IMG/VR virus record: IMGVR_UViG_3300009418_000002
Location: 1 to 47,034 of that record
Direction: 5' to 3' (one strand)
Origin: a virus
DNA length: 47,034 nucleotides
Both the position numbers and the translations under genes were made by a program. This document shows positions 15,409 through 33,874 of this stretch, piece after piece (the stretch's first letter is position 1; the number at the start of each line of letters is the position of its first letter). The notes beneath the pieces were generated by a model. It searched no databases and was not told the DNA's origin. It saw nothing but the letters and a program-made list of their open reading frames with translations.

Positions 15409-16641
15409 CTATCCCCTTTTCATATTCATTTCATAGACCTTCTGAACAGCTTGCCCCAGTACGGCTCCCACCCGCACAGCATCCGTGTCGCTCATGGATG
15501 CAATGATATTGCCACATGACCGATGTAACAAGATTCCCGCACGAAATGACAGGGCTAACACCTGGTTAAGCTCGGCGTCTGTAAGTCCAGTAAGACGAAA
15601 GTGAACTGGATACCCTTCCATTAAGCCAGGCGTTCCATTCGCCTCAGCATTGAAGGCTTCGCGTAGAACATGACCTCGTTCCCACATTCGTTCACTAATC
15701 GACTCCGTGCGATATCGTGTGATGACTTCCTTGGCGGCTGATAGTCCAAGCAACGACCCGCCAAACGTGCTACTGATCAGTTGAGCTTCTTCCATGACAT
15801 CTCGCGTCCCACAGATAGCGGCAATCGGGACACCGTTGCCAAGAGCTTTCCCAAAGCACGCAATGTCAGGAATCGTGTCGCTCTTGCACCAGAGTTGTTG
15901 ACTGCCACCGAGCGCATGACGGAAACCGAAAATCATTTCGTCGAAGATTAACAGTGCCCCATGCTTGTCAGCGAGTCGTCGAGCTTCGGTGTAGAACCGT
16001 CGTTGTGAATGCTGCGTGATATCCAGTGAGTCGGCAACAGGAAAACGATACGGCTCGATCACAATCGCTGCCACCGCATTAGGTAAGGGGTCATCGAGTG
16101 AGTCCAATACTCTTGCAAGGTCGGCGTGGTCGTTATCACGGAACGTCGTGATGTGATCGTTGACCTTGCTGTAGTATTCTGTCGCGTTCTTGGGATCGGC
16201 ATAGCGATGTGGAGCTTGACACCATTCATGCCAGCCATGATACGAATGTTGAGCCACTACCACTGTGCTTTGACCTGTAACGGCACGCGCAATCTGCACG
16301 GCTCCCTGCATGGCTTCGCTGCCAGTCATGACGAACCGCGTCATCTCTGCACACGGAATAACTTCTGACAACCTGGTGGCGACTTCATTCTCAAGGCGAT
16401 GGGGCAATGACAGAATTGACCCCATCGTCAGGGCATCACTCACGGCCTTCGTGACTCCCACATCCCCATAGCCCAGTGAAATCGCGCCAAGTCCTGCGAC
16501 TAAATCAATCACCTTGGACTCGTCAGAACACACGACACGACACCCTGACCCCGACTCGGCATAGCAAGGATAGACGTCGGTTGGCCCAACGGCACCAAAG
16601 GCTTTCGACCGTGTTTGCGAATCGCCTGGTGTGTGCAACAT
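15409..16641 (-). CDS. PLP aminotransferase of the HemL/class III type
   Basis: This 410-residue protein is a pyridoxal-phosphate enzyme of the glutamate-1-semialdehyde aminomutase group: 'VTGSEAMQGAVQIARAVTGQSTVVVAQHSYHGWHEW', 'AAIVIEPYR', 'GALLIFDEMIFGFRHALGG', and the PLP lysine in ACFGKALGNGVPIAAICG. In this cassette it is more likely an aminotransferase for a sugar intermediate than a tetrapyrrole enzyme. It is often paired with SpsF-like cytidylyltransferases in surface-sugar loci. It starts directly after the TAG of 16642-17337, with GGGGCG upstream. Confidence 0.85.
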   Translation of the reverse strand: MLHTPGDSQTRSKAFGAVGPTDVYPCYAESGSGCRVVCSDESKVIDLVAGLGAISLGYGDVGVTKAVSDALTMGSILSLPHRLENEVATRLSEVIPCAEMTRFVMTGSEAMQGAVQIARAVTGQSTVVVAQHSYHGWHEWCQAPHRYADPKNATEYYSKVNDHITTFRDNDHADLARVLDSLDDPLPNAVAAIVIEPYRFPVADSLDITQHSQRRFYTEARRLADKHGALLIFDEMIFGFRHALGGSQQLWCKSDTIPDIACFGKALGNGVPIAAICGTRDVMEEAQLISSTFGGSLLGLSAAKEVITRYRTESISERMWERGHVLREAFNAEANGTPGLMEGYPVHFRLTGLTDAELNQVLALSFRAGILLHRSCGNIIASMSDTDAVRVGAVLGQAVQKVYEMNMKRG

Positions 16642-17337
16642 CTACGACGCCCCTTTCAACATCCCGCAGAGGCGTGCCCCCTCAAGGACGTTCTGTGCCG
16701 AGTAGTCGTGAGGCACGAGATATCCACACACCTGTCGAACTCGGTCAAGGTCTTTTTGTCGATCCACGCTGAGCTTCAGATAGCCATAGTCGTGTTCGGA
16801 TAATACGTCATGAGTTTTATAGTTCGAGCGAATCCACGGCGTAACGTGTTCACGGTCATGGCGAGCATTCGCACGTTGAGCCGCCTCATGTAAGACTTTG
16901 GCTGACATGACTTCCGTATCAAACCCATCCGGCCATCGCGCTTGACGGCCGACATTAGACACATAGTCATAGGTCGATTTCAGGTATTCGTCCAAAACGT
17001 ATGACGACACATCTGAGGCCAGCAACGGACAATCACCAGTGATACGCATCACCACATCGGCCTTCATAAATCGTGCAGCATGATCCATGCGTCCCAACAC
17101 ATCCCACTCCGACCCACGATAGACACAGATACCACTCGATGGACGCTCAAATACTGCCGCCAACCGATCATCATGTCCGTTGACACTGGTAACAAGACAG
17201 ATTCCGGTGAGTCCTTCTATGCGAGAGACACGAGTTATGACGTGCTGAATCATGGACTGACCAGCAATTTGAGAGAGCGATTTTCCCGGCAATCGCTTCG
17301 ACCCCATACGAGCCTGAATCAGCGCGACAACTTTCAA
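16642..17337 (-). CDS. SpsF/NeuA-like cytidylyltransferase
   Basis: This 231-residue protein begins KVVALIQARMGSKRLPGKSLSQIAGQSMIQHVITR, the nucleotide-binding signature of CMP-sugar synthetases and SpsF. It also has 'IRITGDCPLLASDV'-type sequence (MRITGDCPLLASDVSSYVLDEY) for substrate and metal. It would activate a nonulosonic acid or similar sugar with CTP. The start is a TTG in a TTGA overlap with the upstream gene; no internal ATG would keep the signature. The neighbours are the synthase and acetyltransferases. Confidence 0.85.
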   Translation of the reverse strand: MKVVALIQARMGSKRLPGKSLSQIAGQSMIQHVITRVSRIEGLTGICLVTSVNGHDDRLAAVFERPSSGICVYRGSEWDVLGRMDHAARFMKADVVMRITGDCPLLASDVSSYVLDEYLKSTYDYVSNVGRQARWPDGFDTEVMSAKVLHEAAQRANARHDREHVTPWIRSNYKTHDVLSEHDYGYLKLSVDRQKDLDRVRQVCGYLVPHDYSAQNVLEGARLCGMLKGAS

Positions 17338-18365
17338 TGGACCACTCTCTCGACAGCACGTGCCTGACAGGAGTGAATCGGTTGAAGAAAATCCTCACCC
17401 CCAAAGCCGCGACGGAAGAACTCGATATTGGATTCCTTTTCGGTGACGCTGCCTCCCTGATGACCCATCTCGTAATACTTCACACCGAGTTCCTTTAAGC
17501 GTTTGATGATGGCCCACTGAATTGGATGTGACACGTTCGGTGCAAGACTCGCAGCACTGGCATAGTAGGCATAGTCTTTCCATCGCAACACATACGCAAA
17601 TCCAAGAACGCTCTCGCCTTCTCTTGCCACAAACCACGACGCATGGTCAGCCAGCACGAAGCTATCCTGACAGACCCATGAATCGGACGGGCGCGTCACC
17701 CGACCGGAGGCGCGGTGGTGTAAGTCTTGGCACAGTTCCCTGGTGTGATCGTGCCGTTCCTCAGTGACCGTGATTGCCGAGTCTCGAATGATGTGCCTGT
17801 AGCTTTTTCTCACGTCAGCCCATAACCTAGTCAGGGGGATAGATAGATCGATAATACGTGTCCTGATGGAGTCTTCCTGCCAGCCGTTGTCTAATACCAA
17901 TGCTGAATACATCGGTGGATTGCACCACATTCCTTTAAGCATGTCATCAGGAACAAAGTGTGGATGAATCGGCATTATGCGAAAACCGACACGACTATCA
18001 GCGTGACTCACTACCGACTCCAACACTTCACACATGATCGGCAACACGACATCCATCGCAAACCGTTCGTCTGGATGATCCACCAACGCTTCATGCAACA
18101 GCAATGGGGCAGGGGCAGGAAGGTCGCCAAGCCCAAACAGGTTAAGCTCTGGATGATAGGTGAGAAGTTGTGCGGCCACGACTCTCCCGTCTACCGTCAC
18201 GCCCCATGAATGATCGACGAGTGTCGGGTTCCGTGCTATCTCATAATCCCGCCAGAGCGGTCGATTCCAGAACCAGAGGGCGTCTTTTTTGATGACAAGC
18301 TCGTCAACTTGTTCTGTGATCTTTACACCTGACACCGGAACCACTTGGATTCGTGTGTCTTTCAT
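17334..18365 (-). CDS. FemAB/GNAT-like acyltransferase
   Basis: This protein has 343 residues from the ATG at 18365 (ATGA overlap with 18362-18889). The N-terminal half has 'NRPLWRDYEIARNPTLVDHSWGVTVDGRVVAAQLL', as in GNAT-type domains, and the second half has 'ADVRKSYRHIIRDS', 'SWFVAREGESVLGFAYVL', 'YYASAASLAP' and 'KRLKELGVKYYEMGHQGG', as in FemAB-type acyltransferases. It is likely to add an acyl or aminoacyl group to an amino sugar. The substrate is unknown. Confidence 0.75.
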   Translation of the reverse strand: MKDTRIQVVPVSGVKITEQVDELVIKKDALWFWNRPLWRDYEIARNPTLVDHSWGVTVDGRVVAAQLLTYHPELNLFGLGDLPAPAPLLLHEALVDHPDERFAMDVVLPIMCEVLESVVSHADSRVGFRIMPIHPHFVPDDMLKGMWCNPPMYSALVLDNGWQEDSIRTRIIDLSIPLTRLWADVRKSYRHIIRDSAITVTEERHDHTRELCQDLHHRASGRVTRPSDSWVCQDSFVLADHASWFVAREGESVLGFAYVLRWKDYAYYASAASLAPNVSHPIQWAIIKRLKELGVKYYEMGHQGGSVTEKESNIEFFRRGFGGEDFLQPIHSCQARAVERVVH

Positions 18366-18889
18366 AACCGATAGTCCAGTGTCCAGATGTCTCCGCGTTG
18401 ACGACTCACCCAAAAGCCGCACGACCGAAACGCGCACAGCGATGGCTCGTTGTGTCGCTTGACGACTGCTTCAAGAGTTGGTACGCCGAGATCCTTGGCC
18501 TTGCGACAGACGGCACGAAGCATTGGTGTGGCATACCCACATCCTCGGTGAATCGGCGCGACAGTAATCGACACCCGACCATGACGCAGCAGATGGCGAT
18601 TCGGTGAATGCGAGTCATCCTGCACAGAAGGTCGCAAGTCGAGGGCAACGGTTCCAAGATCATCCCACTGAGTATGAGCAATAAACGACGGCGTGAGCGG
18701 GTCTTCCATCATGCTGTGGAGCCACTCCAGATGGTCATCGAACTCAATCGGATCTGAGGAAAGCGAGTTTCGTCGTGTCTGTGGATCGTTGGCCCATCGA
18801 TACAGCAGGGGTGCGTCATCTGCCGTGACCTTTCTCAGCCCAACCACGGGATCTGAACCCTGGTGATCCCTGGTATTACCTGGTCTCAT
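18362..18889 (-). CDS. GNAT N-acetyltransferase (PseH-like)
   Basis: This 175-residue GNAT protein has 'GLRKVTADDAPLLYRWANDPQTRRNSLSSDPIEFDDHLEWL', 'VSITVAPIHRGCGYATPMLRAVCRKA' with the acetyl-CoA loop (RGCGYA), and 'LEAVVKRHNEPSLCAFRSCGF'. The order and the 'W.ND......S...I....H..WL' start are those of PseH and related amino-sugar N-acetyltransferases. It is overlapped on both sides by ATGA. It probably acetylates a 4-amino sugar before the synthase step. Confidence 0.85.
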   Translation of the reverse strand: MRPGNTRDHQGSDPVVGLRKVTADDAPLLYRWANDPQTRRNSLSSDPIEFDDHLEWLHSMMEDPLTPSFIAHTQWDDLGTVALDLRPSVQDDSHSPNRHLLRHGRVSITVAPIHRGCGYATPMLRAVCRKAKDLGVPTLEAVVKRHNEPSLCAFRSCGFWVSRQRGDIWTLDYRL

Positions 18890-19734
18890 ACTCCGACGCG
18901 AAACTGCGCCATCTCCGCTTCTTCGTCCACCTGTTGCTTGTCAGAAGTTCCCATCGCCAGTTCAGCGACCTCCACGTTCAGGACATAGCTCTGTAGCTGG
19001 TCAGGAGTCATGGCGTGTGCATAGTCTGGATTCTTCGGGTCGGTGTCAGGCACTCTGAAATGTGCCTCAAGAATCTCAGCACCCGCACAGACCGCAAGTG
19101 CGCCAGAGGTCACGTAGTTGGGAGCCGTATGATCTGAGAATCCACTAAACGCCAAGGCTTCACGCTTGTTGTCGCCCTTCGACGGAGCCAGGAACGAGCG
19201 ACGCAATACCTTCAAATTTAGCGACCCGTAAGAAGCCGGATACGCACTGACGCAATGCAACAGCTTGAGTTCGTCGGCGGTATAACTGAACGCGAAGTCC
19301 AGATCATTGATACTGGTCATGCCTGTGCTGACGATCATGGGCTTCATACATGCAGACATTGCGTCCCGCAACTCTGCATCCTGGCACTCAAATGACGAAA
19401 TCTTAAACATCGAGACATGCGGGGCGATGACCTCGACATCCTCTGGCAAATAGACGGTGCAAAGATAATCGACCCCTCGTTGCTTGGCGATAAGAGCAAG
19501 TTGTTCATGCCACTCGGCTGGCCATTGAAGGAGATTCTTATAGTGGGCCGCGAACGGAGTCTTCGTCGCGTGGCGGCGTTTCGCCATTTTCCTGGCTGAG
19601 CTTGTCCATTGAAACTTCACCGCACTTGCGCCAACAGAAGCCGCGACCGTGATGAGATGTTCCATCTTTGAAAGGGACGCATCCCCGCAGGATCCAGCTT
19701 CAGCGATGAGGGTCGTTTTGATATTGTTGGGCAT
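18886..19734 (-). CDS. NeuB/PseI-family nonulosonate synthase
   Basis: This 282-residue TIM-barrel protein has 'LIAEAGSCGDASLSKMEHLITVAASVGASAVKFQ', 'CTVYLPEDVEVIAP', 'FKISSFECQDAELRDAM', 'MIVSTGMTSINDLDFAF', 'LLHCVSAYPASYGSLNL', 'GFSDHTAPNYVTSGALAVCAGAEILEAHFRVP'. These are the NeuB/PseI/LegI marks, including the metal and phosphoenolpyruvate residues. It condenses phosphoenolpyruvate with an amino sugar. The usual C-terminal SAF (antifreeze-like) domain of about 60 residues is absent. It overlaps the Gfo/Idh/MocA gene by about 35 bases. Confidence 0.92.
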   Translation of the reverse strand: MPNNIKTTLIAEAGSCGDASLSKMEHLITVAASVGASAVKFQWTSSARKMAKRRHATKTPFAAHYKNLLQWPAEWHEQLALIAKQRGVDYLCTVYLPEDVEVIAPHVSMFKISSFECQDAELRDAMSACMKPMIVSTGMTSINDLDFAFSYTADELKLLHCVSAYPASYGSLNLKVLRRSFLAPSKGDNKREALAFSGFSDHTAPNYVTSGALAVCAGAEILEAHFRVPDTDPKNPDYAHAMTPDQLQSYVLNVEVAELAMGTSDKQQVDEEAEMAQFRVGV

Positions 19735-20563
19735 CGTGAATCATCTCCACGACAAGCGCACCATCTGTGATAGTGGCTGCCGTTGTTGAAGGTTTCCGAA
19801 GTGTCAGAGCTTGCATGAAGTCCTTGAGTTCGTCTTTATACATCGGTGCAATCGCTGACGGTGGATGTCGCAAATTATAATTAGTCTTCGTCTGGTCGTC
19901 CCATGCGACAGTCAGGGTTCGACATTCCTCTCGTGGATGGCTGACATATTTCAACTCACAATCAATTTCCAAGTCTTCTTTCTTTTTGCGTGGCGCGGTA
20001 AGACCAATCCATGCCGAGGTCGGTTCCACCTGTGCGAAGTTGACGCGAGTCGCCCCAAAGAAGTGGCAAGCAAGATCAAGTTCATGACTGGCTTCATAAA
20101 TGACATCCCCATACGTCGAAGCGAATCCCGGCCAGAGACTTCGACACGAATAGCATGTCAGCTTGACATGGGTCGCTCTGGTTCCTTTTTTAAGCGTGGC
20201 ACACATCTCGCTCATGGCACGAATTATCGTGCGATTAAACCGCCAGCAGTAGCCGACCTGCGTGATACGTCCCACGCTCATCTCTACCAGGGAGGTCGCC
20301 TCGTCAAGCGATGAACATAACGGCTTCTCGATAAAGACTCCCGCCTCGGTCTGTTCAAGTGCATCTTTTGCGATGTCGTAGTGGGTTGAGAATGGTGTGC
20401 AGATCAGAATCCCATCAGGCTGACGAGACAATGCGTCCTCAAGTGGAGGCGAATCTGAGACTCGTGGGTCAACAATTTCGATGTCATCTTGGACACCGAG
20501 AGCGAGGGCGTTCCGATGATGACGCTTGCCAATGGAACCGAATCCAATAATGAGCAGTCGCAT
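19700..20563 (-). CDS. Gfo/Idh/MocA-family sugar oxidoreductase
   Basis: This 287-residue protein begins RLLIIGFGSIGKRHHRNALALG, the NAD(P)-binding Rossmann loop, followed by 'ILICTPFSTHYDIAKDAL' and 'VFIEKPLCSSLDEA' (EKP motif), and 'YEASHELDLACHFFG' with the substrate-domain histidine. It would oxidise or reduce a sugar hydroxyl in the cassette. It is shorter than usual (330 or more). AGGGA precedes the ATG, which follows the TGA of 20564-21562 directly. Confidence 0.88.
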   Translation of the reverse strand: MRLLIIGFGSIGKRHHRNALALGVQDDIEIVDPRVSDSPPLEDALSRQPDGILICTPFSTHYDIAKDALEQTEAGVFIEKPLCSSLDEATSLVEMSVGRITQVGYCWRFNRTIIRAMSEMCATLKKGTRATHVKLTCYSCRSLWPGFASTYGDVIYEASHELDLACHFFGATRVNFAQVEPTSAWIGLTAPRKKKEDLEIDCELKYVSHPREECRTLTVAWDDQTKTNYNLRHPPSAIAPMYKDELKDFMQALTLRKPSTTAATITDGALVVEMIHDAQQYQNDPHR

Positions 20564-21562
20564 TCAATATCCCTGCTCGTCTGCTGATGCGATAAGTGAC
20601 CGTAGCTGGGCGTCATTCATGAGCCTATCCGGTGCGTTGCTGGTGTATCGGTAGGTGGAAGGCACGGCTTTTCCTGCCCAGGCATCCTGCGTCCACGTTG
20701 GGCCAGATGGCGGGACAATGTAGAGGTCACACGACGAATCATAGAGTGTGCGGGTTACTTCCTCAGTCGAGAGCAAGACCTCATGCACCTTCTCGCCACC
20801 AGCCCGAATTCCAATAACAGACGCATTGAGTTCTCTGAAGTTCCCTGTCTGCCTAACGACTGTTCGCATCAAGTCATGCACGGATGCCGACTTGAGTGAC
20901 GGCACGAAGATTTCGCCACCCACTTGACGATCTATCGCTTTCCAGACCAGTTCAACGGCCGCCGATAACGGCATCCAGAACCGTGTCATCTCGGTGTCGG
21001 TAATCTGTAGCCGCTCACCTCGCTGTTGCTGCTTGCGCCAGAGTTGCAAGACCGACCCGCGTGAGCCAAGCACGTTGCCGTAGCGCACGACAGACGCACG
21101 GAACGTCTCAGGGTGATAGGCATTGGAGCCAATCACGAAACCCTCAGCACTGGCCTTGGTTTTGCCATATTGGTTCATCGCCTCAACCGCTTTATCTGAA
21201 CTGATGAAGACCAACTGCTTGACCCCACAGGCAAGACAGGCATTGACGACGTTCATTGTGCCGATGACATTCGTCTTAATCAGTTCGCCGCCATCGGTGT
21301 GGGCGTTGACCCGTTTCAATGCCGCCGCATGAACCACCACGTCCGTGCCATAGAACGCCTGACACAGCCGATGATAGTCACGCACGTCCCCCAGGTAGGC
21401 GCGGAACTGGTGATAGGTTTTGAACTGGTCGCCAATCTGGTCAGCTTTCACCTCATCGCGTGACAAGGAAATCAGTCGCGTCACTTCTGGATGATGCTCT
21501 TGACAGTGCCCGATGAAGGCTCGACCAAAACTGCCCGTCCCGCCTGTGACCAGTATCTTCAT
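20564..21562 (-). CDS. PseB/CapD-like UDP-sugar 4,6-dehydratase
   Basis: This protein has 332 residues from the ATG at 21562, which overlaps the preceding small gene by ATGA; a longer frame is an unlikely start. The NAD-binding MKILVTGGTGSFGRAFI, 'DVVVHAAALKRVNAHTDGGELIKTNVIGTMNVV', the active site 'VFISSDKAVEAMNQYGKTK' and 'RYGNVLGSRGSVLQLW' match short-chain dehydrogenase type dehydratases such as PseB (UDP-GlcNAc inverting dehydratase). It makes the 4-keto-6-deoxy intermediate that starts pseudaminic or legionaminic-type pathways. Confidence 0.9.
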   Translation of the reverse strand: MKILVTGGTGSFGRAFIGHCQEHHPEVTRLISLSRDEVKADQIGDQFKTYHQFRAYLGDVRDYHRLCQAFYGTDVVVHAAALKRVNAHTDGGELIKTNVIGTMNVVNACLACGVKQLVFISSDKAVEAMNQYGKTKASAEGFVIGSNAYHPETFRASVVRYGNVLGSRGSVLQLWRKQQQRGERLQITDTEMTRFWMPLSAAVELVWKAIDRQVGGEIFVPSLKSASVHDLMRTVVRQTGNFRELNASVIGIRAGGEKVHEVLLSTEEVTRTLYDSSCDLYIVPPSGPTWTQDAWAGKAVPSTYRYTSNAPDRLMNDAQLRSLIASADEQGY

Positions 21563-21783
21563 GTGCCTCGGCTCATTCGGTTGATGTACCGATGATCGAC
21601 ATTGATCCGACACTTCACTCGCATCCGTTCGTGGGCCGGAAGCGACCAGAACCACATCTTCTCCTCGATGACATATCGTAAACGAGGATAGATTCTGAGA
21701 GCCATCCCACACACGCCAAGACCAGTCAACCAGATGAGATGGTTACACCACGAACGAGCGGTCGCAAAATGGGCAGGTGACAT
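21559..21783 (-). CDS. small protein with one membrane segment
   Basis: This 74-residue protein overlaps its upstream neighbour by about 40 bases and the dehydratase gene by ATGA. Residues 14-29 (CNHLIWLTGLGVCGMALRIY) form one hydrophobic stretch, and the C-terminal half is basic (KCRINVDHRYINR). No family is recognised. Its tight coupling to the sugar cassette suggests a link, which is inference. Confidence 0.5.
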   Translation of the reverse strand: MSPAHFATARSWCNHLIWLTGLGVCGMALRIYPRLRYVIEEKMWFWSLPAHERMRVKCRINVDHRYINRMSRGT

Positions 21784-28157: not shown

Positions 28158-29048
28158 CTAGTCGTCGAAGATGATTTGACGCACTGGACATTCCTCAACC
28201 ATTGATTCGATGTTCGCAACGGTCGAAGCTATCTGCTCGTTGATGGATGCCTTGAACGATTCACTGTCCCGCATGTCTTTCACACTGACGCCACTGAGTA
28301 GCTTCCGCATATTCGCAACCGCCTCATGCATGTCCTGGTCATTAGCGAGATTACGAGCCTCGAAAGTTTCCATGAAGTCCGTGAGCTTATTCAGAATGGA
28401 AGCATGAATCGGGCGTTTGCGAGTACTGCCGTTCGACCCCGTGGGCTGGAGTTGGGATTTGAACTGCGTCACAAACTCTAGGCACGTTCGACGCATGATA
28501 GCCTTCGTGTACTCAGTCGCCTTTTCAAACTCCTTTTGGAGCTTGTCACGTTCACGCTGAAAGACTGCGCTACTGATGTCGGCCAGTTCGCCAGGGACGT
28601 TCGTTGAGATATATGACCACTCAATCCCGAATGCCGTAGCGACTTCAGCTACCGTGGGATAGTCATTATCTCGATATAGATCACCAAGCTGTTCACGGGC
28701 AGTCACTTCAACAAGCGTTGGCCACTCACCGCAGAGTGTGGCGACTTCACCCTTCATCTGTGACACGTAGTCACCCAACTGGTCTTCAACTTCTGAAACA
28801 AATTCATTTGGAAGTGCATACACCGCACCACGCAGTCCAGTTTCGACAGCCCGAGAGAGTAGATACGACCGTGCTTGATTCTGAATTCGCTGGATGCGTT
28901 TGTAGGTGTTTGACTGGAATAACTTCTTGTTGACGCTGACGAGAGTCTTGTCAGCCGTCGTCTCCACGCGACCCTTGTCAATCTTTCTGGTCACGCCGAG
29001 ACAACGAAAATGTAACGAGATGAATACCGCATTCTTGAGAGTAGCCAT
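28158..29048 (-). CDS. DUF3150-like protein linked to AAA ATPase operon
   Basis: This protein has 296 residues from the ATG at 29048 with AAGGAGAAC. The start 'KNAVFISLHFRCLGVTRKIDKGRV' and following helices ('LFQSNTYKRIQRIQNQARSYLLSRAVETGLRGAVYALPNEFVSEVEDQL') resemble DUF3150 proteins, which accompany AAA ATPase genes. The rest is helical and charged. Its ribosome-binding block (AAGGAGAACAGAATGGCTAC) is shared with the AAA ATPase gene at 32141. The 104-base leader contains two inverted repeats. Function is unknown. Confidence 0.55.
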   Translation of the reverse strand: MATLKNAVFISLHFRCLGVTRKIDKGRVETTADKTLVSVNKKLFQSNTYKRIQRIQNQARSYLLSRAVETGLRGAVYALPNEFVSEVEDQLGDYVSQMKGEVATLCGEWPTLVEVTAREQLGDLYRDNDYPTVAEVATAFGIEWSYISTNVPGELADISSAVFQRERDKLQKEFEKATEYTKAIMRRTCLEFVTQFKSQLQPTGSNGSTRKRPIHASILNKLTDFMETFEARNLANDQDMHEAVANMRKLLSGVSVKDMRDSESFKASINEQIASTVANIESMVEECPVRQIIFDD

Positions 29049-29064
29049 TCTGTTCTCCTTGAAA

Positions 29065-29130
29065 TTGGACACAAGCAAGTTATGTCCAAGTGATGTGCTA
29101 GGGATTGATCGATAGCATCGCATCGATCAA
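29065..29130. promoter_or_regulatory. two inverted repeats upstream of the DUF3150-like gene
   Basis: Plus-strand repeats are TTGGACA (29065-29071) with TGTCCAA (29083-29089), and TTGATCGAT (29105-29113) with ATCGATCAA (29122-29130), loop eight bases, both perfect. They lie in the gap before the ATG at 29048. They could be operators or RNA hairpins that protect or stop the upstream transcript. No U tail follows on the minus strand, so simple termination is unlikely. Confidence 0.45.
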
Positions 29131-29396: not shown

Positions 29397-29726
29397 CTAG
29401 ATGCTTCGGTGTATCCAGAGCCAGTCACGTTCAACGGTAAGAGCCTCAGCGCGAGAGGCGTGTGGTGACATCACGATGGTCGGGCCATCGACAGGCGACA
29501 GGTTCACTTGCCACTGACATGACCAGTGCCGTGTCCATTCCACGAGGCCGATAGCCCGACACCGATGAAAGCACCACCGCAGGACGCGATGATGCGGTTC
29601 GATGTGCGACACCCGACGCTGATGACAGGTGCCTAGTGTGCGAAGGCTGGCGAGTGGGGCATCATCGACAAAGCTCAGAGAGCCGTTTTGCACGGTGATA
29701 CAGACGTGGTGTATGCCAATACTCAT
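29397..29726 (-). CDS. hypothetical His/Trp/Arg-rich protein
   Basis: This 109-residue protein starts in an ATGA overlap with the DUF2997-like gene. It is rich in His, Arg and Trp ('HHRVLRWCFHRCRAIGLVEWTRHWSCQW'). It has several Cys and could bind metal, but no spacing is convincing. It is held in the Ycf35/DUF2997 operon by overlap. Confidence 0.5.
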   Translation of the reverse strand: MSIGIHHVCITVQNGSLSFVDDAPLASLRTLGTCHQRRVSHIEPHHRVLRWCFHRCRAIGLVEWTRHWSCQWQVNLSPVDGPTIVMSPHASRAEALTVERDWLWIHRSI

Positions 29727-29905
29727 GACCGCACCCTGGTGGCTGTAGTGGCCTGTAAACGGCTCTCAGCGGTCATTGTGGTGGCCGTCTTCTTTCCCAG
29801 TGCCTTCTCTAGTTCTGCTGTGGCCTTGAGGCATTCCTTGCCCTTGAATCCAGACGTCTCCACCACCGCTTCTCCGTCCCAGATTGTGACCGTGATGGTC
29901 TTCAT
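29723..29905 (-). CDS. DUF2997-like protein
   Basis: This 60-residue protein is MKTITVTIWDGEAVVETSGF followed by KGKECLKATAELEKALGK. The beta hairpin, then 'GF.G..CL.AT..LE.ALG' is the DUF2997 pattern. In bacteria and phages such proteins usually lie next to DUF1257 (Ycf35-like) and Ycf46-like AAA genes, as here. It overlaps both neighbours by ATGA. Function is unknown. Confidence 0.8.
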   Translation of the reverse strand: MKTITVTIWDGEAVVETSGFKGKECLKATAELEKALGKKTATTMTAESRLQATTATRVRS

Positions 29906-30354
29906 GATTTCACTCCAATCACCTGTCGTCGACCTTGAGCGTTGACGCGAGTGCTGACGCGGTAGCCTTTGCGCTGGAGTTGCTTGACGGCTACCCGTTC
30001 GGCGTAGCTGTTCTTGATGGTTTCGAGTCCATCACCATATCGCTTCGCAATCTTTCGACCACTCGCGTAGTTGTCATAGAGCAACCGGTATCCGTCGCCG
30101 TTTGGATTCTTGACGACGCCGATTTCATACTCGGCTCCTTCAACCTTGATGGCATGTTCCGACTTGCCAAAGTCAGACGCATCGAAGCCGTTATCAACCG
30201 CCGCCGATGAGCCGTGGAAATCGTTCATCCATTTTCCATACCACTTGTAGGTACGCTGACCTTCGCAAAACGTCAGCCCGTCTGTCTGTTCAACGGCCTG
30301 TTGCAATGCGTCAAGGTCAGTCACGGTGAGTTCCACATTCGACACATGAGACAT
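29902..30354 (-). CDS. Ycf35/DUF1257-like protein
   Basis: This protein has 150 residues from the ATG at 30354 (TAATG overlap). 'MSHVSNVELTVTDLDALQQA', 'GQRTYKWYGKWMNDFHG', 'SEHAIKVEGAEYEIGVVKNPNGDGYRLLYDNYASG', 'IKNSYAERVAVKQLQRKGYRV' match the DUF1257 (Ycf35) layout, including the central W-Y segment and the final 'Y....l....rkGf.v'. Ycf35 is known from algal plastids and cyanobacteria, of unclear role. The neighbours are the Ycf46-like ATPase and DUF2997 protein. Confidence 0.8.
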   Translation of the reverse strand: MSHVSNVELTVTDLDALQQAVEQTDGLTFCEGQRTYKWYGKWMNDFHGSSAAVDNGFDASDFGKSEHAIKVEGAEYEIGVVKNPNGDGYRLLYDNYASGRKIAKRYGDGLETIKNSYAERVAVKQLQRKGYRVSTRVNAQGRRQVIGVKS

Positions 30355-30572
30355 TAGTTGTCCTCCTTGATTCCATGCGAGTTCCAACACCGAAGAATCT
30401 TGTTACTGTTTGCGTGCTTCACACGGATGCCAGCCTGTTTGAAACCGTTGGCAACCACCGACGCAGGATAACCAGCCGTGCCTCCGTACTGGCCTTCGTT
30501 CCAATCCCAATCTTGAATCTCAAGAAGGGCATTGACTAAAATTTCCTCTCGTTGTGTAAGTCTCGGCATCAT
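30354..30572 (-). CDS. small hypothetical protein of the AAA operon
   Basis: This 72-residue protein starts MMPRLTQREEILVNALLEIQ; the second Met (30569) is an equal choice. 'VVANGFKQAGIRVKHANSNKILRCWNSHGI' looks like a small winged helix or NUMOD-type fold, but this is uncertain. It overlaps the Ycf35-like gene by one base and follows the ATPase gene by nine bases. Confidence 0.55.
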   Translation of the reverse strand: MMPRLTQREEILVNALLEIQDWDWNEGQYGGTAGYPASVVANGFKQAGIRVKHANSNKILRCWNSHGIKEDN

Positions 30573-30581
30573 GTCTCCTTC

Positions 30582-32141
30582 CTAGTTGAGCTTGTGAGCG
30601 TCGCCAGCATCGAACGAGGACACATCAATCTGCCGTGTCTGTTCAGTCGGCGTGTTGGTCGGGCGATGATACGGCCCAGACTCGCTGGCTGAAATCCACA
30701 CGCCGTCCGCTTGCGACCGTAACGCCTCGATACTCCGTGCTGAGGCTTGTCCCTCTGGCACGATGTACGTGGCTGCTTCCTTCATTGTCAGATCAAGCGT
30801 TTGCGATGTCTCAACGCAGACTTGAATATTGGCAGGACTCCATCCATCGTCAGGAACCATCAGGTCTTCAAGAGAGTCTTCATCGTTACGCCAATGGCAA
30901 TAATTCTTCCAGATGGCTTTGCGGTCTTGAGCGTTCGGCAGGTCGAAGAAGAACTTGCCACTCTTGAATCTCCGCATCAGTGCCGGACTCAGACCAGCCG
31001 TGCTGTTGCAGGTTGCCAAGAACAAGACCTTGCCACGACTAACGGCATGGATGATGTTCATCGCCTGACGTAGCCGACTCTGAGACTCACCAACCAGTGA
31101 GTTCATCAAGCCACCGAAGTCCAACTGACACGTCAGCGTTCCGGTCGATTGCGACATCATCGACTTGCCAGTTCCCGGCAGTCCCATGAAGACCATCCCG
31201 TCGTACTGACGTTCCTGCATCTCTTGAAGAAGCACGTTGACCTGATCCATCACGATGCCGTTGCTTTCACCTTCGGCTCCGTGCAACTGCTTCTCGATCT
31301 CATCAATCCATACGACAAGATTGATGTCCTTCTTTTCAAGAAACGATTTGAGATAGGTCTTGCAGTTGTCGTACCCAATCACATCATCGAGTGTCGTGGT
31401 CGGCATCCAGATTGTGAGTCCCGGCGTATCGTCAATCATCGCCTTCTTGCGATCCCACAATCCGTCAATGTCCAGACCGTCTTTCGTCAGCGACATCGCG
31501 GTGACTTGCTCAGAGGTAAATCTCGACAGGCCAAACAAGGCTTCAACGGCATCCTCGATGAGTGCCGCCCCTGGTGACTGTTGATCGTGACCAGCTTCAT
31601 ACACCGACGTGACCACCGCCTTGAGTGCCTCACCATCAGGCAGCGGTTCGTCATACGTCATCACGTCATGAGAGAGTTCACGAGGCATCGTCATTCCCGG
31701 CGACAACAACACCAGCATCCGTTGATTGACCTTGAACTGATCGCGCAGATTGTAGATACCCTGAACAATGTCGATGGCTGGCTTGCCGTCTGGTGCAATC
31801 AAGAGATGGGCGTTATGGAGAAACACGATGCTCCCCTGCTCAACCTGAGTCAACCGGTTCAACACTTCGACCGGATTGAGCAAGCTGTCAGGATTGTTAT
31901 CAGATAGCGCAGTAATCGCGGCGGTGGCTTGCTTGACATGAGTGGTTCCCGATGAGGCTGGTGTCATGCCTCGCACCGCGTCCCATTGCAACGAGACACC
32001 GTGCTTGCCGTTCTTGGCTTGCACCGCTTCGATTTCCTTGACCACTGATACAACCGTGGAAGCGGCATCAGGTGTGCCAATCGAAATCAGCGGCGTGCTG
32101 ACCAGGTACGCACGTCGGACGTCTTCCAGTAATGTAGCCAT
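30582..32141 (-). CDS. Ycf46-like AAA ATPase with permuted Walker B/Walker A order
   Basis: This 519-residue protein has N-terminal residues 1-240 that match the Ycf46 N-domain ('LISIGTPDAAS', 'LQWDAVRGM', 'GSIVFLHNAHLLI', 'RMLVLLSPGMTMPRELSHDV'). The AAA core has 'DDVIGYDNCKTYLKSFL' (253-268), Walker B-like VVWIDEIEK (276-284), a helix, then Walker A FMGLPGTGKSMM (318-329), 'SLVGESQSRLRQAMNIIHAVSRGK', sensor-like VLFLATCNS (372-380) and Arg finger ALMRRF (387-392). Normally Walker B comes after SLVGES and before the sensor. Here it precedes Walker A. The start is an ATG with AAGGAGAAC. Confidence 0.88.
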   Translation of the reverse strand: MATLLEDVRRAYLVSTPLISIGTPDAASTVVSVVKEIEAVQAKNGKHGVSLQWDAVRGMTPASSGTTHVKQATAAITALSDNNPDSLLNPVEVLNRLTQVEQGSIVFLHNAHLLIAPDGKPAIDIVQGIYNLRDQFKVNQRMLVLLSPGMTMPRELSHDVMTYDEPLPDGEALKAVVTSVYEAGHDQQSPGAALIEDAVEALFGLSRFTSEQVTAMSLTKDGLDIDGLWDRKKAMIDDTPGLTIWMPTTTLDDVIGYDNCKTYLKSFLEKKDINLVVWIDEIEKQLHGAEGESNGIVMDQVNVLLQEMQERQYDGMVFMGLPGTGKSMMSQSTGTLTCQLDFGGLMNSLVGESQSRLRQAMNIIHAVSRGKVLFLATCNSTAGLSPALMRRFKSGKFFFDLPNAQDRKAIWKNYCHWRNDEDSLEDLMVPDDGWSPANIQVCVETSQTLDLTMKEAATYIVPEGQASARSIEALRSQADGVWISASESGPYHRPTNTPTEQTRQIDVSSFDAGDAHKLN

Positions 32142-32965: not shown

Positions 32966-33874
32966 TCATGTATGGCAATAGCCACTGCATTCGTTGTCAA
33001 ACAAATCCATCTGGTCGGTGTCGTCGTATGCGTCTTCGATTGGCACACCTGACTGATGCAGATACGGGTCACCACGCAGCAAAGCAATTCCCTTCGTGGC
33101 CATGACACGCTGGTCTTTCTCGGTAGCACTCCCGTCATCGATACGGGCTTTTGTGGCAAGGTATTCATCCCTCGTAATCTTTGGAATCTCCCGCAAGCTG
33201 CGGTCAAAGACAACCGCTTGGGCAAATTCTTCCGGTCTATGCTTCCGCATCTCGGCAAAATACCGTGACGAATGAAAGGGGCATCCAATGCAACTGCTTT
33301 TCACGGGTTCTCGCCCAATCACCTCTGTCACATACCGCTTGCAATCCTGCCTGTTGAAGCCAATTTCAATAAGGGGCCATCGTATGGTTTCCCAATGTTC
33401 GGTCGATGGCTTCATTCGACTGGCTTCGTCGGTAGAGATTCCAATCCATGTTTCGACATGATGTTTCCATCGTTGGTGAGGTTTATATCCGAGCAAACGC
33501 CGGACCTCTTTGACAATCGGTTGAATCTTGTATTCAGACGTACATTGCCGCCGCACGAATCCTTGTGAGCCGTCTTGGTTTTTAATATGAAGGGGCATCA
33601 TCGATGCGCCACGGGGAGAACGAATCGATCCGGCTGTTACTGTTCTGACCTCCACACCGTGTTCCTTTGCCCACACCTTCATATCTGACAAATGACGCAT
33701 CACGGCCGGTGGTTCCCATTGGGTGTCAGCGAAGATGGCAACGTCAGGTTTTTCAATGCTTGGAAATTCGTCACGACACGCAGCAATGAGAAGCGCCGTA
33801 GATTGCACCCCTGCACCAAAAGACAGCGTTCGATAATCGGGCGTTCTTTGATTGAGTTGCTGTGTTTTTGACAC
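32966..33874 (-). CDS. PAPS reductase/PP-loop-like protein
   Basis: This 302-residue protein has the PP-loop 'YRTLSFGAGVQSTALLIAACRDE' (SFGxGxxS at about 18-25), then 'AIFADTQWEP', 'TEHWETIRWPLIEIGF' and 'SSCIGCPFHSSRYFAEMRKHRPEEF' with the CxxC pair used by some PAPS-reductase-like and DndC-type enzymes. Such phage proteins bind ATP and may form sulfur-containing or adenylated groups. The substrate is not clear; the sulfur-related role is inference. Confidence 0.8.
   Translation of the reverse strand: MSKTQQLNQRTPDYRTLSFGAGVQSTALLIAACRDEFPSIEKPDVAIFADTQWEPPAVMRHLSDMKVWAKEHGVEVRTVTAGSIRSPRGASMMPLHIKNQDGSQGFVRRQCTSEYKIQPIVKEVRRLLGYKPHQRWKHHVETWIGISTDEASRMKPSTEHWETIRWPLIEIGFNRQDCKRYVTEVIGREPVKSSCIGCPFHSSRYFAEMRKHRPEEFAQAVVFDRSLREIPKITRDEYLATKARIDDGSATEKDQRVMATKGIALLRGDPYLHQSGVPIEDAYDDTDQMDLFDNECSGYCHT

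Follow-up and report, generated by a model that had tools for sequence, protein, structure and literature searches.

The window analysed here is the whole 47,034-nucleotide stretch of the IMG/VR virus record IMGVR_UViG_3300009418_000002, and it contains tailed-phage genes encoding a terminase, a portal, a major head protein and a tape measure. On its minus strand, positions 30582-32141 (stop codon included) hold an intact open reading frame with an ATG start that encodes an AAA ATPase of 519 amino acids, and genes for DUF1257, DUF2997 and DUF3150 proteins follow downstream on the same strand. The features of this region are the following:

30582..32141, minus strand: permuted AAA ATPase gene, 519 aa; intact ORF, split Pfam AAA match, conserved among 58 relatives
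31347..32141, minus strand: Ycf46-like domain at the N-terminus plus a small helical part (aa 1-265), a degenerate module resembling AAA but lacking a P-loop; from AlphaFold secondary structure, the p97 D1-D2 tandem fit and phage ycf46 folds
31206..31325, minus strand: displaced block B (aa 273-312), with beta-3, Walker B VVWIDEIEK and helix alpha-3; from profile alignment and invariant residues
31032..31205, minus strand: block A (aa 313-370), with beta-1, Walker A GLPGTGKS, alpha-1, beta-2, pore-loop-like SLVG and alpha-2; K326 and G351 invariant
30666..31031, minus strand: block C (aa 371-492), with beta-4 and sensor 1 ATCN, the RRF arginine-finger region, beta-5 and the lid; T377, N379 and R391 invariant
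30354..30572, minus strand: 72-aa ORF between the AAA and DUF1257 genes, found only in the close relative L001
29902..30354, minus strand: DUF1257 (Ycf35-type) protein; PF06868, E 9.6e-6, above cut-off
29723..29905, minus strand: DUF2997 protein; PF11211, E 2.5e-11
28158..29123, minus strand: DUF3150-like protein; PF11348, E 5.9e-4, under cut-off here, while homologues in other loci pass

Every profile that serves to detect AAA proteins has the element order of their core built in, and this order is regarded as fixed. Most attributes of the classical family (PF00004) can be recognised in the window protein, namely a P-loop of the GxxGxGK[ST] type (GLPGTGKS, 320-327), a Walker B of the form hhhhDE (VVWIDE), the sensor 1 asparagine (N379) and the conserved arginine of the second region of homology (R391). 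The order Walker A, Walker B, sensor 1 (beta1-beta2-beta3-beta4) is, however, not respected: VVWIDEIEK (276-284) precedes GLPGTGKS, and KVLFLATCN (371-379) comes last. The first-pass annotation had already placed Walker B ahead of Walker A, with residue numbers that proved exact, and had claimed that the segment SLVGES...RGKVLFLATCN runs into the sensor with no DEI between; we likewise found no acidic Walker B between alpha-2 and sensor 1. Against the Pfam AAA profile the window protein gives two interrupted matches, the better of which covers only positions 1-63 of 131, and a normal-order relative gives a single continuous match (2-130), so that family searches recognise proteins of the permuted order only by half. 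Compared with its relatives, the arginine-finger helix is slightly different, reading RRRF and lacking their KGRFD. The alpha-1 region (aa 328-336, window positions about 31134-31160) is approximately 4-6 residues shorter than in nearly all relatives.

Block exchange and its conservation among relatives

To locate the displaced segment we used profile alignment (hhalign) of the permuted family against the usual-order family. The natural order scored 542.6, removal of the 40-residue block B gave 553.8, and placing this block between alpha-2 and beta-4 raised the score to 687.4. Scanning the insertion point along the chain produced one sharp maximum of 692.8, after IHAVSR in the alpha-2/beta-4 loop. 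The displaced block thus corresponds by homology to beta3-alpha3 in normal relatives, and for this reason its position is more than a chance arrangement of motifs. Each of the three junctions is located in a short loop that links two elements (alpha-0/beta-3, alpha-3/beta-1 and alpha-2/beta-4) and, once block B has been moved back, the N-domain, the linker, the AAA motifs and the C-terminal part align end to end with normal relatives over 473 columns.

The same order, Walker B, Walker A, sensor 1, is common to 58 proteins, found in phages (including the isolate Tunturi_3) and in bacteria of five phyla. Beside the window protein this set comprises 15 viral loci, Tunturi_3 and 41 bacterial loci, with identities to the window protein of about 27-93 percent. 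The closest is L001, another virus contig (93 percent), in which Walker B again comes before Walker A; gp103 of Tunturi_3, at 32 percent identity, aligns collinearly in one piece and has the same motif order. The paper describing Tunturi_3 makes no mention of its ATPase (PMC11924767). A profile search of viral contigs returned 38 loci, the 15 permuted ones and 23 of usual order that are more distant, and a scan of bacterial genomes returned 41 permuted loci (33-40 percent identity) together with 39 of usual order, the two orders being separated by similarity without exception. More distant relatives have the normal order in 62 of 62 loci. Among the approximately 120 loci whose motif order was read, no duplicated or intermediate form (A-B-A or B-A-B) was observed.

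As the window belongs to a metagenomic virus record, it could be asked whether the order of the blocks is an artefact of assembly or sequencing, or whether a single phage genome was rearranged locally and recently. The 57 other proteins come from independent metagenomes, from bacterial genomes and from an isolated phage, and this refutes such an explanation, whose probability is practically nil. The search for homologues of the same order that the first-pass annotation had proposed was successful, and the case it had named against itself, that of a rearrangement missing from relatives, is excluded.

Conservation of the catalytic residues was complete: D280, E281, E283, K284, G320, K326, G351, T377, N379 and R391 are invariant in all 58 proteins. 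Position 327 is always S or T (58/58), V350 is found in 57 of 58, and in many relatives the second-last G of Walker A is replaced by A. When the window gene was compared with that of L001, about 80 synonymous and 30 nonsynonymous changes were counted (dN/dS 0.077). Block B has 11 synonymous and no nonsynonymous changes and block A 14 and 1, so purifying selection is strongest on the two exchanged blocks. Since a single swap has persisted in no fewer than 58 relatives from phages and bacteria, none of which has lost a catalytic residue, the permutation appears to be a functional variant of an enzyme fold that is among the most conserved.

Our main reading, to which we give a probability of roughly 0.86, is that the two halves of the core exchanged order in a Ycf46/Cdc48-type AAA protein, made of a degenerate N-terminal AAA module and a single catalytic AAA domain, that is predicted to be an active remodeller. 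The segments [beta1-Walker A-alpha1-beta2-alpha2] and [beta3-Walker B-alpha3] would have exchanged places. The permutation would be limited to the stretch from beta1 to alpha3, leaving the start of the chain (alpha-0) and its end (beta-4, sensor 1, beta-5 and lid) unchanged. The exchange could have come from a tandem duplication of the beta1-alpha3 segment followed by loss of the outer halves.

Origin of the permuted order and its gene cassette

Maximum-likelihood trees were built from reordered sequences. All permuted proteins fall into a single clade (100/100), whose sister group consists of normal-order proteins of Planctomycetaceae (100/99); the next group out is also of usual order (98/95), and several of its members lie beside DUF1257 or DUF2997. 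Given this nesting among usual-order relatives, the ancestor most likely had the usual order and a single swap most likely took place, a conclusion from sequence trees that depends on the rooting among usual-order relatives. In this way the transposition of a strand-helix block within one continuous frame, suggested in the first-pass annotation, agrees with the profile alignment, with the 58 proteins of the same order and with a single origin. The sister proteins L122, L123 and L124 share with the permuted ones the C-terminal signature WTGAEI..CC, although their blocks are in the normal order, and one Planctomycetaceae genome (G013) possesses both forms, with segments N, A, B, C on contig C88 and a permuted copy on contig C180.

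We also considered a foreign origin of the Walker B block, and it is not supported: the N-domain, the C-terminal part, block A and block B, each taken alone, separate the same permuted and normal groups (100, 99, 95 and 92, respectively; the block B tree has 40 columns and weak resolution). The N-domain, which makes this separation too, lies outside the swap.

Concerning the neighbouring genes, DUF1257 was detected near 45 of 57 permuted loci, DUF2997 near 42 and DUF3150 near 48. The same neighbours are found near some usual-order Ycf46-type relatives of phages and bacteria, including groups adjoining the permuted clade (L085, L087, L101, L019 and L092), and DUF1257 and DUF2997 both lie beside the normal-order genes L122 and L123. 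These relatives have Walker A before Walker B, whereas the permuted members constitute one separate clade. All three DUF genes are thus companions of the permuted and of the usual form, which places the swap within a functioning cassette, and the permuted enzyme replaced, or descends from, a usual-order enzyme of the same cassette. The occurrence of both enzymes in the same cassette is good evidence that they do the same job. DUF1257 and DUF2997 have been reported in one cyanobacterial gene cluster together with ferredoxin, with no function given (PMC4284462).

Bacterial copies are sporadic, being present in 8 of 100 genomes of one acidobacterial order and in 1 of 100 in Nitrospirota; overall they come from Acidobacteriota, Nitrospirota, Armatimonadota, Myxococcota/Deltaproteobacteria and Planctomycetota. 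The Bryobacteraceae genomes G004 and G009 each have at least four divergent permuted AAA copies. Acidobacterial cassettes often include an NrdG-like radical SAM gene and a Gp157-like gene. In three acidobacterial loci (L134, L156 and L054) the permuted cassette lies near a ThiF gene of the PRTRC system (TIGR03736 above cut-off in L134 and L156) and an NrdG-like radical SAM gene (L134, L156 and L054); surroundings of this kind suggest that a mobile element carries an enzyme of the ThiF/E1-like kind. Because the copies are sporadic, sometimes present several times in a genome and in some cases near the PRTRC-type ThiF gene, they are likely to be carried by mobile elements. A prophage origin of all of them is not supported, as no terminase of family phrog_2 was found on their contigs. 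Membership in a defence system was rejected: the PADLOC matches are weak and reflect the shared AAA domain, and the IetA/anti-phage AAA family model (PADLOC, NCBIfam) gave 25.1 bits against a cut-off of 510.

Predicted structure and function

An AlphaFold model of the permuted protein, computed with 16 permuted sequences, has all five core strands, with a confidence (pLDDT 82.7, pTM 0.68) similar to that of a usual-order relative (82.8), although the program may be biased towards the common AAA fold. Beta-3 was assigned as a strand at pLDDT ~91. The PDB sequence search returned fragmentary AAA matches only. The permuted model fits Vps4 (4d82) with Z 15.3, 2.5 A over 201 residues, and p97-D2 (6g2v) with Z 14.8, 2.6 A over 196 residues, while the usual-order model reaches Z 25.2 over 258 residues and Z 25.4 over 252 residues on the same chains. 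A smaller fit is what would be expected of a sequential aligner, which must drop one of the two exchanged blocks; these have 40 and 58 residues, roughly the difference observed. VIA-align reports outer ranges only, and either block could be the one skipped. The full-length permuted model was also superposed on the p97 D1-D2 tandem (Z 18.2, 5.2 A, 406 residues). Set beside the classical AAA proteins Cdc48/p97, Rix7 and Vps4, the permuted model fits p97 D1-D2 in its tandem architecture and Vps4 in its catalytic domain, but its N-terminal module has no P-loop and the order of its core blocks is different.

For the N-domain, the top folds in BFVD (viral) are phage proteins annotated as ycf46, in support of the Ycf46-like N-domain recognised in the first-pass annotation. 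Together with the profile alignment with normal relatives, these folds identify the arrangement of Ycf46-type proteins, in which a Ycf46-like domain at the N-terminus is joined to an AAA domain at the C-terminus, and from which the window protein departs in the order of its core.

The invariant D and E, the confident beta-3 strand and the good superposition on p97-D2 and Vps4 for most of the domain favour a placement of IDEI at the ATP site. On this reading, the strands would assemble into the usual sheet 5-1-4-3-2, with beta3 connected to beta1 through alpha-3 and beta2 to beta4 through alpha-2, and in such a sheet E281, K326 and N379 would come together in a single ATP site.

Inactive AAA domains are known, and the strand before Walker A might instead pack elsewhere, for example on the N-terminal module, in a protein that has lost its true Walker B and acts as an ATP-binding, non-hydrolysing scaffold. 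We consider this very unlikely, given that D280 and E281 are invariant in 58 diverse proteins, as are the sensor 1 N and R391, that the block is homologous to beta3-alpha3 and has no amino-acid change with respect to L001, and that no alternative acidic motif lies between alpha-2 and sensor 1. It is also conceivable that the displaced strand-helix block completes the sheet of the neighbouring subunit, giving a strand-swapped ring in which each ATP site is made by two chains; the permuted order could favour swapping, and the structure predicted here is a monomer. However, the linkers around the block are of about 3 residues (alpha-0 271 to beta-3 275; alpha-3 311 to beta-1 314) and leave little room for strand exchange, so that we regard this arrangement as very unlikely.

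The position after beta-2, which in Vps4 and p97 is the substrate-gripping pore loop, reads S-L-V-G in the window protein. This, together with the tandem fit to p97 D1-D2, suggests that the permuted protein may be a ring-forming protein remodeller. The ring would remodel or thread a protein substrate, with the DUF1257, DUF2997 and DUF3150 proteins as possible adaptors or substrates.

A P-loop fold that keeps its chemistry despite a changed motif order is known in circularly permuted GTPases of the YlqF/RsgA type. In those proteins, however, the whole domain is circularly permuted (G4-G5-G1-G2-G3) and the fold is that of GTPases. In the open-access literature we found no published AAA protein with a permuted Walker order, and novelty is claimed provisionally on this basis. 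We think it probable that these proteins are the first known AAA lineage with a naturally permuted catalytic core, in which the halves bearing Walker A and Walker B changed places only once, a change that was fixed and spread by phages and mobile elements, within a conserved AAA-DUF1257-DUF2997-DUF3150 cassette and with ATPase function predicted to be kept. A natural lineage in which the order is broken and the catalytic residues are kept suggests that fold and chemistry are independent of chain order, and the permuted lineage with its close normal-order relatives in the same cassette constitutes a natural experiment.

Elsewhere in the window, positions 15412-21712 contain genes for a class III aminotransferase, a cytidylyltransferase, a NeuB-family synthase, a Gfo/Idh oxidoreductase and a polysaccharide-type epimerase, which look like a pathway for a nonulosonic (sialic-acid-like) sugar. 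A gene similar to phosphoadenosine-phosphosulfate reductase (phrog_424) lies upstream of the AAA gene, at 32966-33874, and its sole homologue among the fetched loci is beside a bacterial permuted AAA gene (L068).
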